Positions 43,101-49,100 of a stretch of DNA of 64,000 bases are shown here, piece by piece. The number at the start of each line of letters is the position of its first letter. Positions within the stretch are counted from its first letter, which is position 1. Both the position numbers and the translations under genes were made by a program. The DNA is from Xiphophorus maculatus (lineage: Eukaryota; Chordata; Actinopteri; Cyprinodontiformes; Poeciliidae). Location of the stretch: NCBI RefSeq assembly GCF_002775205.1, contig NC_036445.1, positions 1,260,802 to 1,324,801 of the forward strand, read 5' to 3'. The notes under the pieces are model-generated. The model was not told the origin of the DNA. It ran no database searches and worked only from the letters and a program-made list of their open reading frames with translations.

Positions 43101-46100
43101 TACTTCTTGAACTTTTTTCTATTTTGTCAGGTTATCACCACAGACTGTATTTTGGTTTATTTGGATTTCATGTAACAGAATAAAGTAGTGTATATCTGTG
43201 AAGCAGAAGGAATACGAGAAACTTTTTTTTTTATTTGAAAAGTGTAGCAATGTTTGGTTGCCTATGTTCAACTTTTTGGCCAATACACAAGAAGCTACAA
43301 ATGGAAACTACCGACATCCATCACCTTGAGCCAACCATTCCTAAACACGATGGTGCACACTTCATATTCTTTCCTCTTCACATTTATGTGCTGCTTTGTG
43401 TTGATTTACCACCAAAAATGCTAATAAAATACTATAAAGTTTAATCTTAAGTTTAATGTGACAAAATGTGCAAAGAGTTTTCAATGCTTTTGCTAGGTTC
43501 TGTAATTTCCTGTATTGTTTGTGGTATTATCATCATTAAAGTTACAGGGTTCCCACTGAAAAGTCTGTCTTTGAATCTGTAAAGAACAGTTTGTATATGC
43601 AACAAGTATATAGTTACATGTATAGGTTCAGTAAGGATGAAGCAATTGGTACAAAGACACTAACTTTCTCCTGTGGCCTGATGACATTAACCTGAAAGAT
43701 TAGTCCTAATGATCATCTTTAAATTAAGGGAAAAGAGAGGGTAGCTTGCAAGCCTGGGGACAACATCCCAATGTGAATTACATGGGTAGGAGCATCATGT
43801 TGTTTGAGCTTTTTGCTGCAGGAAGAACTGGTGCACTTCACAAAATAGATGTCAACACAAGGAAAGAACATATGTAGAGATATTACAGCAATATCCCAAC
43901 ATATTAGCCTAAGCATCCCACTAACTACTTAAATTCAACAAAGACAATGTTTCCAAGTGACCAAAGTTGTGAACTTGTTCCCATAGAAAGTTGACCATAA
44001 ATCTGACTCAGTTCCATCAGTTCTGTCAAGAAGAATGGGGGAAAATTTCCAACAAGTTATTGTGAGAAGCTTTTGCGGAAGGAAACCCGAAATGTTTGAT
44101 GCAGGTCATGCAGTTTAAAGGCAATGCTACCAAATACTAATTAAATCTGTGTAAAGTTTTGAATTTGAAGTCATAAAATTTTCTAGAAATAATGGAACAG
44201 GAATAACTGCTTTTTTAAACCAACGTTTATTCCAAGAGACATCAATTTTAAGAGATTGTTACAGCTTTTGTTGCTGCTTTGAGTTTCCTTCAGATTGACC
44301 AGCTAGCTGAAAATGGGAAACCTGTAATTGATTTTCCGTGTTTGTGTGTGTTTGTCCTGCCCAGCTCCTGCTTTCCCCTTCCAGTTTGCCTTTGTTTTGA
44401 TTGTCTCTCACACTTCGCCTGTGTTTGTGTCTGTATTAATAGTGTGACCATGATGTCTGGCATGTGTATTAACAGTGATCTCCCGTGTCCCCGTCTCCCT
44501 CTTCCCCCACTCTCCTGGTTCTGGCTCGCCCCTGCTTGCTTGTGTTACGCCTAACCCCAGAGTGGCATCCATAACAAGGACCTGCTGGTGTGTGCGTGTG
44601 CGGTGGGAGTGGCCACCTGTTTTGCTGCTCCTATAGGAGGCAAGTCTCACCAACCAATCAGAAACAAGTCTGCGGACAGCTTTGCTCTCCTGAAGAAACA
44701 TCTGAAGCTCAGATAAGATATTTGACCTCTGTCTTCCTCTGTAAACATGGCACAGAACAAATAAAAAGTTTAGCCTCTTAATACCTCTGAACATTGGATT
44801 GTAACATTTTTAGAAGTATATGACTGGTTTTCTATTCTAACATGTAAATAAATTACTCTAAATGCATCCCACCCCATTCATAATTTGTAAACTCGTGTTT
44901 ACAAACAGCTGCCAACTTAAACCCAAACTACGATCAATAGCCAGGTGTATTAATTCCTCAACTATGCACTATCACATACAATGGCGACCTCCTGATAGCA
45001 AGCACAATAGCTGTCTTTGTTTACATTTCTTCAGGCACTAGAACTGTCACTGCAGGCCTTTTGGGGCTAAGCAACTTTTGAGAATACGAGCAATAATATG
45101 ATTTTGTCTGGCTTTGCTGTAGACAAAAAACAATTACCGTAATAAGGGAATTTTATGAGATTATTACTAATAACTGTAATAATAAGTAATTAATAAGAGA
45201 AAATGTATTTCTATGGCCAACAAAACTTTCATGGAAAAATCTCAGCTTGTAACAGCAATCATTTTTTCATGTTAGAGAAAACAAAACCTTTACTTTCCTA
45301 AATGATCCTTATCTTTCAGTATTTGTTTTAATCCTTACCAGGAAGCGTTTTATATTTAAGATTCTAAATGAAGCATGTAGGGCCAGAGCTTTCGGTTTCT
45401 GAGCCTTTCTGACTGTCGAATGATAAATGTCAAGTGACACTCCCAGACACTCAAGCAGTAACACTTGCTTCATTAAGTCATTGTTGATATCTTCCTGCCC
45501 TGGCATTGTGTAAACACCCAGCTGAACCCTGCAGACTAGCAAACTGCCAAAACCTCTGCTCTGATAAGAAGCTCGCAGCTGCTGGTGATCGTTTAGCTCC
45601 GCCTGTCTGATACTTAATCTCTTAAGGAAGCAGCAACAGTGTGTGTAGTTTTTCTCCTGACTGCTTTTCATGCCTAAACAATAAAAATATGAGTTTTTGT
45701 TTAATCCAATGTTGGTCACGATGATTTGAAGTGTTTCAAGTCAGCTGTTTGTTGCATGGATCCAAATCTGAAGGCGATGTGGTCATTTGACGCAGTTTTT
45801 CTAAACACTGCTCATCCTTTTCCTTATATCTTCTGTTGCTGCTTTGTTTCCTCTCCCTGTCAGTTTTTATCACACTCTAGTGAGCATTATTTATTGACTT
45901 TCTTCCATTTTGCTCCCTCACTGTCATTGTTCTCCTCCCACCCCCCCTGTGGTTCTCCATCCTGTTCTCTCCACCTTGATCTTTTATTCCTTTTTCCCTC
46001 CAACTTACTGTCCTTTCTTACTTCCAACTGTCATCCTAATTTTCTCCCCGTATCGTCTCTGGGCTTTCATCCCTGTCTCACCTCTTTACGTCCCTCCTCT

Positions 46101-49100
46101 CCCTCTGTTTTCTGTGTCAGTAGAACCCATATGGTTACACAGATATACTGACTGTCGGCTGTGCCGTTGGGGTGGGATGCTGTTTCGGCACTCCACTAGG
46201 AGGTACTGTACAAACTTCACTCTGTCGCTCATTCTGAACCGTCTCGCCAATCTTGTTTCGTTGTGCTGCGTATCTTCAGCTACACCTGAAACATGTCAAT
46301 AAGAATAGATATAAAAATAACAAAAACTCCTTTAGATTCTGAACCCAAAGCTCGTATGCTAAAATAAAAATATATATATTTGTGTAGTTTAAAGGAAGTT
46401 AATGAAATTGTTTAGAGATTCATTAAGTATATTTTTGTTTTAAAATATGTCTTCTTATGTAGTTACCAGAAACAGTAAGAATATCTGTGTTTGGTTGGTG
46501 TGTTGCTGAAACATTGTGTCTTGGCAATAAATCCAACACAGGGGAGAACGTTTACTTTTATATATAAATAGAAATAGAAATATACACATATAATATAAGG
46601 AAATATTATTTAAAATAAGACACCTGCATCTATTTAAATTAAAATAAACAAGATCACGCAGATGCATCTTGCTTGGTGCATGTCATTGTCATTTTGAGGA
46701 ATATTTGTCCAGTTTAAACCTCAGACATTTAGTTTGGTTGCTGAAGTGAGAGAAAATAAAAGTTTGAGCTCTAAAGAGCCGCATCAGGCTTTCGGAAACA
46801 TGATTTTAGCAGCATTTCAATCTGGTAATGATCTCAATAGCCTCTGAAATGTTATAATACTTGAACATTTTTAAATAAAGAATTAAATATTTAATCAGGT
46901 GTGCTAATTTCCTCACATAACTGCACATTTGGCAAAATTCCAATAGTTAGATCAGATCAGTTTTTATCTATAATCACGAGTGTTAAATGTAATTTTTTTC
47001 CAGTTATTTTATTGTAAAATTTACTGAAACTTTGTGGTTTTCTAATTTGGGTAATTTGGACTCTTAAGCTTTCTTGAAATGCACAATTGCAAAAGAATTA
47101 CTAAATTAGTAAAACACAAAACCTTTAGCAGAAATCCTCAGTTTTTAATAGTTTGCTCAAGCATAAATAAATGTCGCCTGTTATTCAATTTGCAAAAGTC
47201 TTCTGCAGAGCTCTGCCTCGTACTTCTTGAAGGTTGTTGGATGTGACTGTAGCTGCATATTTAAGCTCAGCGTTAGGCTGCAGAATGAATTTGGGACTGA
47301 TTACATGCCTCCCTGATGGTGGATGGCAGATAAAAGTCTGTTTATCTAAAATGTATGAAACTTCTGGACACTTTCTAGGGCATAAAAAATTCAAAACCTG
47401 GCATACTCTGGTCTTTAAATATATTTTCATCCCTGTATTATGTTCAGTTGTTTTTGGTTAATTCACTGTGTCTCATTTTATTTTTCTTTTGTGTTTGTGT
47501 GCTACTCAGTGTAATTACTTGTAGGCGTGTGTTTGTTAACTCCCCACGGTTCTCTTGTTGAGTATAATTACTAGTTTCTGGACTCATTTTGCTATTTTAA
47601 ACTAATCTCTGTCTTTTCTCACCTTCTCTTTCCCCTCTCCCAATTACCTCTCCATCCATCCTCATTTTCTTCCTCTCTGTAATCCCTCCTCCTTATGTCT
47701 TTCCTCCCTTCTTCTCTCCTCCCTCACCAGGAGTGCTGTTCAGTATTGAGGTCACGTCTACCTACTTTGCTGTGAGGAATTACTGGCGGGGATACTTTGC
47801 TGCCACATTCAGTGCCTTCATATTCAGGGTGCTTTCTGTTTGGAACAAGGATGCCGGTGAGAAGTTAACTCCACACGAACAGGCAATCTGCTGTGGAAAG
47901 ACCGCTGAGGTTGCATTTCACACACACACAAAAAATGTTGAGCATGGCAGCTAAGTAGAATTTGCTTCTTTAGATAAAGCTTAAACTTTTGAAGTCATCA
48001 CTCATACTATAAAAGCAGTTCAGCAGCACCATCCAGTATTTAAATCATGCTGTTTGTTTCTCTAAGACACAAAATGCCAACATTTAGAAAAAGTTAAGCA
48101 CTCTTAACATTTCACAAACTTTAAGTCCATTTTTTGCTTTTACAAAGATGCACATATTTGAACCTCATGCAATGCCATTTGATCATTAAAGCTAATCTTG
48201 TTCATAAACTTAGACATGTTTGGGTATTTTTTTCTAAAACATTACACAGACAAAACATCGCCCTGCATTATTATTGGCACCCTTAGTAGAAGATGCATTC
48301 AAAATCCCTAAGGTTGTTTTGGAGACTTATTGACCCTCGGGTACCATTTTCTCTTCAGCTATTTAGCAACAGACTTTATATCTATAGCATTGGAAAAATA
48401 TTAAGAGACCACTTAAAATGATCAGTTCTCTGATTTTACTTTTTATATGTATATGTTTGAGTAAATTGAACATTATTCTTTTATTCTATGAACTACTGAC
48501 AACATGTCTCTGAAATTCCAAGCAAAAATTTAGTTTTTATTTGCAGAAAATGAGAAATGGTCAAAATAACAAAAAAGATCCAGTGCTTTCAGACCTCAAT
48601 AAAACAAGTTCATACTCATTTAGAAACAACAAAACTAATGTTTTAACTCAGGAAGAGTTCAGAAATCAACATTTGGTGGAATAACCAGGAGTTTTTCAGT
48701 GGAGTTCAGTGCAGTGGGCTCTTAATTCTTTCCAGAGCTGTATATTCACTAGAATATTAGTCCTGAATTTTGGAAGCTGTTGCCTTACCACATGTCTATT
48801 TTTAATCCTCCTTGCTGCCCTATAATCAAAACTTCAAACTTCATTGTGTAAATTGTCCTCTAAATAGTGTGCAACGAGTAGAGAAGTACTGTAGCTGCTT
48901 GCTATAATTATCTCCATTGTCTTTTTTGTTATGTAATTATTTTTGTTCCACTTTTCTCAGTCACAATCACAGCTCTTTTCAAAACCAACTTCAGGATGGA
49001 TTTCCCCTTTGACCTGCAGGAGTTACCAGCATTTGCAATCATAGGGTGAGGATATTGTTAGTACTTGTACATATGTGTGTGTGTGCTGCAAACACTATAT

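Follow-up and report, generated by a model that had tools for sequence, protein, structure and literature searches.

A well-supported ortholog of the myotonic dystrophy exon 7a encodes an intact, likely exchangeable helix G in clcn1 of Xiphophorus maculatus

Mutually exclusive exon pairs arise by tandem exon duplication, and their members are homologous neighbors that match in length and phase and disrupt the reading frame when both are included. Here, we describe two such neighbors, exons 7a and 7, in a clcn1 gene of the fish Xiphophorus maculatus; the gene lies on the + strand of a 64,000-nucleotide (nt) stretch, the window (contig 3, 1260802-1324801), of a genome that was searched over 704 Mb and 101 contigs. 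A described counterpart is the exon 7a of mammalian CLCN1 (Clcn1 in mouse), whose inclusion leads to the myotonia of myotonic dystrophy and whose skipping is a therapeutic aim (PMC10082032, PMC12458930; here and below, statements taken from cited papers refer to excerpts of them). Fetal muscle mostly includes 7a, and splicing then moves toward exclusion under MBNL (PMC10760957); a review attributes the repression of 7A to MBNL1 bound at the intron 6/exon 7A junction (PMC4176163). In mouse, reverse transcription PCR (RT-PCR) gives 345 bp without 7a and 424 bp, plus two longer products, with it, a difference of 79 (PMC10082032). The exon is said to contain an in-frame stop (PMC7404189), and another paper locates the stop that follows 7a inclusion in exon 7 (PMC10082032). 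A limited literature search turned up no description of 7a as a duplicate of exon 7; the main experimental study (Kino 2009), which may contain one, lies outside that search. As set out below, it is well supported that 7a of this fish is an ancient exon for an alternative helix G and an ortholog of the 7a of myotonic dystrophy, and its use as a mutually exclusive channel exon is likely, though unproven.

Sixteen exon-sized pieces between ~40.68 and ~53.06 kb of the window have matching counterparts in another clcn1 gene, which lies on contig 13, and exon 7a is additional to them. Exons 7a and 7 lie 1,484 nt apart between exons 6 and 8, and each is exactly 79 nt long, entered in phase 0 and left in phase 1 (Table 1). 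When exons were joined in silico, 6-7a-8 and 6-7-8 stayed open, and both 6-7a-7-8 and 6-8 ran into a premature stop within exon 8. The two encoded proteins align without gaps, with 11 of 26 residues identical, and a 7a query finds exon 7 at E 3e-5 (tblastn against the window and seven further genomic stretches). These results reproduce what the original prediction, made from the letters of the window, had claimed of the pair: its coordinates and lengths, its gapless alignment, and a frame that is kept by one exon alone and broken by both or neither. Absent from that account was the splice donor of 7a. The 79-nt length depends on a GC donor, GGAG/GCAAGT, where a strict GT-AG rule would not end the exon, and 7a differs in this from exon 7 and 14 other clcn1 exons, whose donors (those of the 14 picked by eye) are GT. 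Besides 7a, the + strand of the window holds no second instance of AG followed by 79 open nt ending in AG and then by GCAAGT, GTAAGT or GTGAGT; the 8-mer AGGCAAGT occurs once per strand in the window, and an Rfam scan of 36-56 kb returned nothing at gathering score. In their homology, adjacency, equal length and phase, and in the frame being lost when both are included, 7a and 7 resemble known mutually exclusive pairs. They differ from them in having one GC donor, in that one partner is described as a "poison" exon in mammals, and in that their exclusive use in this fish is what we infer.

A genome search with exon 8 gave six matches, to which names were assigned by similarity: the clcn1 of the window, the clcn1 of contig 13, three clcn2-like genes and one clcnk-like gene. 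A set with two clcn1 and three clcn2-like members is in keeping with a teleost genome. When the genome was searched with the 7a protein, no second 7a was found among the best candidates scored, whose four matches were 7a itself and exon 7 of the three clcn2-like genes.

The peptide encoded by 7a matches CLC channels of solved structure over helix G. Translated together, exons 7a and 8 match ClC-2 (1e-31, 111 bits), ClC-1 (4e-30, 106 bits) and ClC-K (7e-19, 71 bits) in PDB, and exon 8 by itself reaches 69-71 bits against ClC-2 and ClC-1 and 42 bits against ClC-K, leaving ~35-42 bits of the ClC-2 and ClC-1 matches to 7a. The core of 7a reads FAAPIG, as in ClC-2, where ClC-1 exon 7 has FGTPLG; in the alignment (6coy numbering), Ala276, Thr277 and Cys278 of fish 7a stand opposite Gly, Cys and Cys of ClC-1. 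The slow-gate cysteine C277 is therefore missing from fish 7a, with Thr in its place. Slow cooperative gating depends critically on C212 in ClC-0, C277 in ClC-1 and C258 in ClC-2, and ClC-K is without this cysteine (PMC4188032), so C277 is not required of a CLC channel. The disease mutation C277Y is reported to lower currents, and C277S raises the minimum open probability of the slow gate and abolishes zinc block (PMC4410605). Because Thr replaces C277, a channel built with 7a is predicted by analogy to have a changed common gate, weakened or mostly open, and to be less sensitive to zinc block, Thr at position 277 itself lying beyond the gating literature cited.

Exon 7a of this fish is very probably the ortholog of mammalian 7a, a judgment based on place, length, phase, donor and protein and not on the tree described below. 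Mammalian 7a is represented in this comparison by mouse only. Its sequence is printed as a minigene in PMC5964235, where the legend says exon 6B, and its acceptor and first 11 bases were fixed from the antisense oligonucleotide of PMC10082032; the 79 nt from that acceptor give TVPGQLDLLVPACAVGVGCYFAAPDG and a split G, and the intron then opens with GCAAGT. Mouse 7a, like its fish counterpart, thus lies between exons 6 and 7, is 79 nt long, is open in the phase of exon 7, and has the donor GGAG/GCAAGT; the printed sequence carries no stop in that phase, unlike what PMC7404189 states. Downstream of the exon, the fish and mouse introns agree at 10 of their first 12 bases. The two exons share 15 of 26 residues, all of them in codons 7-26 (15/20), and none of 100,000 shuffles of fish 7a scored at least 15 identities to mouse. 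Nucleotide differences number 7, 10 and 17 at codon positions 1, 2 and 3, respectively, an excess at third positions (17/26 versus 17/52; Fisher p=0.006). NG86 estimates of nonsynonymous (dN) and synonymous (dS) divergence, which are rough with 26 codons and a dS near saturation, are 0.47 and 1.70 for the whole exon and 0.24 and 1.26 for codons 7-26. In simulations based on the distance at third positions, at least 15 of 26 residues were retained in 0.03-0.08% of 20,000 runs when one lineage drifted neutrally over its entire length, and in 18-20% when it drifted for half of it. It follows that neither 7a copy was neutral throughout, though either could have decayed late. The shared place, 79-nt length, GC donor, residues and third-position bias indicate that 7a is probably older than the fish-mammal split and was protein-coding for long.

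The original prediction had gone further and read 7a and 7 as an ancient duplicated pair of which mammalian 7a is a degenerate relic. Our results support the view that 7a and 7 are an old pair and that fish 7a is an intact helix-G exon. That mammalian 7a is a relic appears doubtful, however, since the published mouse exon has no stop in the phase of exon 7 and has retained its splice sites as well as Cys277, with decay hinted at only by Tyr278 and Asp283, where fish 7a has Cys278 and Ile283 next to its Thr277.

The 7a acceptor also carries motifs of the MBNL type in both species. Four YGCY motifs lie in the 50 nt before fish 7a, compared to 0-2 at 14 other clcn1 acceptors (those of exons 15 and 17, whose sites could not be fixed, were left out), and four lie in the 50 nt before mouse 7a; three more are found inside the exon in fish and three in mouse. 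Within the gene, four motifs are reached by only 3 of 691 50-mers ending in AG, including the 7a site, a figure to be read in light of the motif and window size having been chosen after the MBNL literature was known. We take this cluster as a putative MBNL site at the fish 7a acceptor.

We consider it probable that 7a is an ancient alternative exon 7 of clcn1, older than the fish-mammal split, which encodes a complete helix G, is exchangeable with exon 7, is repressed by MBNL and is used in a 7a form made elsewhere. Equal length and phase would make the two exons exchangeable, and one alone would give a full channel, while both or neither would shift the frame and probably lead to nonsense-mediated decay. 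Exclusivity would then be enforced by frame and decay and not by the spacing of the exons. In mature muscle, MBNL on the YGCY cluster probably represses 7a, in line with what is reported for mouse, and the 7a form would be produced in settings poor in MBNL or in cells of other kinds. In mammals, 7a would persist mainly as a developmental off switch.

Several observations weigh against this explanation, and some of them bear on where 7a came from. Fish and mouse 7a are 56% identical in DNA, and each is 64-73% identical to clcn2-like exon 7s. In a tree of eight exon rows of 78 nt, the best topology pairs mouse 7a with a single clcn2-like exon (support 82/84), so that the two 7a stay ungrouped, and the rest of the branching is unsettled. 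It is possible, and we hold it as a tentative alternative, that 7a reached clcn1 from a clcn2-type gene by capture or conversion and did not arise by duplication of clcn1 exon 7, a question of origin that is compatible with either use of the exon. In favor of such a capture, fish 7a has 66-70% DNA identity with exon 7 of the three clcn2-like genes versus 53% with its own exon 7, mouse 7a is also closer in DNA to clcn2-like exon 7s, and forcing all four clcn1 exons (both 7a and both 7) into one clade makes the tree 5.3 log units worse and is close to rejection (p-AU 0.063). A tree constrained to hold fish and mouse 7a together is not rejected (p-AU 0.24). ClC-1 exon 7 has residues of its own, so an old 7a that retained FAAPIG would look clcn2-like anyway, no clcn2-like copy stands out as the donor of fish 7a, and 26 codons are too few to settle the matter. 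Exon 7 of clcn2, which encodes helix G of ClC-2, shares with 7a the FAAPIG core and the highest DNA identity, but each of the three clcn2-like genes has a single exon 7 (tblastn; the stretches include intron 6) with a GT donor. Two histories would fit: 7a may retain an ancestral state since lost from ClC-1 exon 7, or it may derive from a clcn2-type gene.

Other observations on the same side concern how well 7a has been kept as a channel exon. It is far less constrained than exon 7, which differs at one residue between the two clcn1 copies (dN 0.018); Tyr278 and Asp283 of mouse 7a may harm the helix; and when fish 7a was compared with exon 7 of the CLC genes of this genome, four of six third-position tests had p > 0.05 (0.064-0.22). 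The weak constraint and the non-significant tests fit the idea that 7a, although homologous to mammalian 7a, is in fish, too, a poison exon only, which is included with exon 7, shifts the frame and turns the gene off, its channel-like sequence being left from its origin. Consistent with this are the stop in exon 8 that 6-7a-7-8 produces, the MBNL-type motifs at the acceptor in both species, the solely frameshifting role in which mouse 7a is described in the excerpts of PMC10082032, PMC10760957 and PMC12458930, and the compatibility of the data with decay in the last half of one lineage. On the other hand, a pure poison exon would not have to preserve an amino-acid sequence or to agree with exon 7 in length or phase, and at a third-position divergence of 17/26, wholly neutral exons keep a mean of 2.9-3.0 of 26 residues, whereas 15 were observed. 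We therefore regard a role as poison exon alone as rather unlikely.

The remaining points against an exchangeable, MBNL-controlled 7a concern its regulation and its use. When YGCY motifs are counted over 100 nt, their excess is only mild, with 3.8% of windows having as many, and a mouse-type RNA hairpin was not seen at the fish 7a acceptor, where the junction folds no better than its shuffles (z +1.6), 191 of 200 being equally or more stable. The clcn1 of contig 13 is without 7a, having an intron 6 of 131 bp and, in 30 kb, nothing below E 1 but its exon 7 (tblastn); this second clcn1 gene has lost 7a. The use of 6-7a-8 is something we infer from sequence. In the excerpt of the mouse long-read work (PMC12458930), 7a is named with other events and no 6-7a-8 form is named, the figure being one of the 15 commonest alternative forms; a legend there carries the ambiguous label "Clcn1 exon7 skipping". 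That 7a is a dead or chance exon-like stretch, unused in this fish, would agree with its absence from contig 13 and with its being known here from sequence and not from expression, but it is very unlikely in view of the open frame, both splice sites, the mouse-identical donor, the 10 matching intronic bases, the residues shared well beyond shuffles and drift, and its uniqueness on the + strand of the window by the splice-site and length criteria given above.

A 6-7a-8 form would be hard to see by RT-PCR. Mouse primers named exon 5 to 8 (PMC12946605) recur unchanged in PMC13010256, and the pair of PMC9964082 occupies the same sites with slight differences. Placed on the fish gene, the primer sites of PMC12946605 predict 345 bp for 6-7-8, 345 bp for 6-7a-8 and 424 bp for 6-7a-7-8, and the first and last of these equal the mouse sizes of PMC10082032, the primer pair here being that of PMC12946605. 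With its size of 345 bp, the product of 6-7a-8 would count as "7a excluded." We raise as a possibility, and doubtfully, that vertebrate ClC-1 still uses 7a as an alternative exon for helix G, one no younger than the fish-mammal ancestor. The choice of exon would then decide between slow gating (exon 7) and a different common gate (7a), and in mammals the 6-7a-8 form could have been overlooked through its RT-PCR size.

Exon 7 has unusual borders of its own. The upstream AG of its tandem acceptor CAGTAG, if used, puts an in-frame TAG stop at the start of the exon; the tandem acceptor is kept in both clcn1 copies and may be a second off switch. The exon 7 donors of both copies are off consensus (GTACTG at 46203-46208 in the window and GTAGTC on contig 13), and those of the clcn2-like genes are near it (GTGAGT, GTGAGT and GTAAGA). 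Two of the clcn2-like genes lie ~100 kb apart on contig 18, near 10.53 and 10.63 Mb. Elsewhere in the window, open reading frames recognized by eye resemble caspase-2 exons upstream of clcn1 (~12.0-16.3 kb, + strand) and remnants of a Tc1-type transposase (~19.06-19.63 kb, - strand); casp2 is a gene that we take to neighbor CLCN1 in mammals.

Table 1. Features of the clcn1 locus around exons 7a and 7 (positions in the window; the slash marks the splice site)
Feature	Position	Strand	Basis or remark
clcn1 exon 5	42404..42537	+	~96% protein identity to contig 13 copy over 48 aligned residues; donor AAAGAG/GTTAAC
clcn1 exon 6 (78 nt)	42904..42981	+	phase 0 at end (...SGVYE)
Exon 7a 3' splice-site region with four YGCY (MBNL-type) motifs	44511..44560	+	motif count
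Exon 7a, 79 nt, 26 residues plus split G, alternative helix G	44561..44639	+	frames, PDB matches, tblastn, mouse 7a
Exon 7a GC donor (GCAAGT)	44640..44645	+	identical in mouse 7a
Exon 7 tandem acceptor CAGTAG	46118..46123	+	same in contig 13 copy
Exon 7, 79 nt, 26 residues plus split G, standard helix G; donor GTACTG	46124..46202	+	alignment, PDB matches
clcn1 exon 8 (126 nt), common to 7a and 7 forms	47731..47856	+	frames, PDB matches

A long history as a coding substitute for exon 7 would, if real, give a reason for the conservation of 7a, its length and its control by MBNL. A channel isoform with altered gating may in that case exist in fishes, and perhaps in mammals, invisible to the routine assay. 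Altogether, our analysis suggests that the "poison" exon of myotonic dystrophy began as a working alternative part of the channel.

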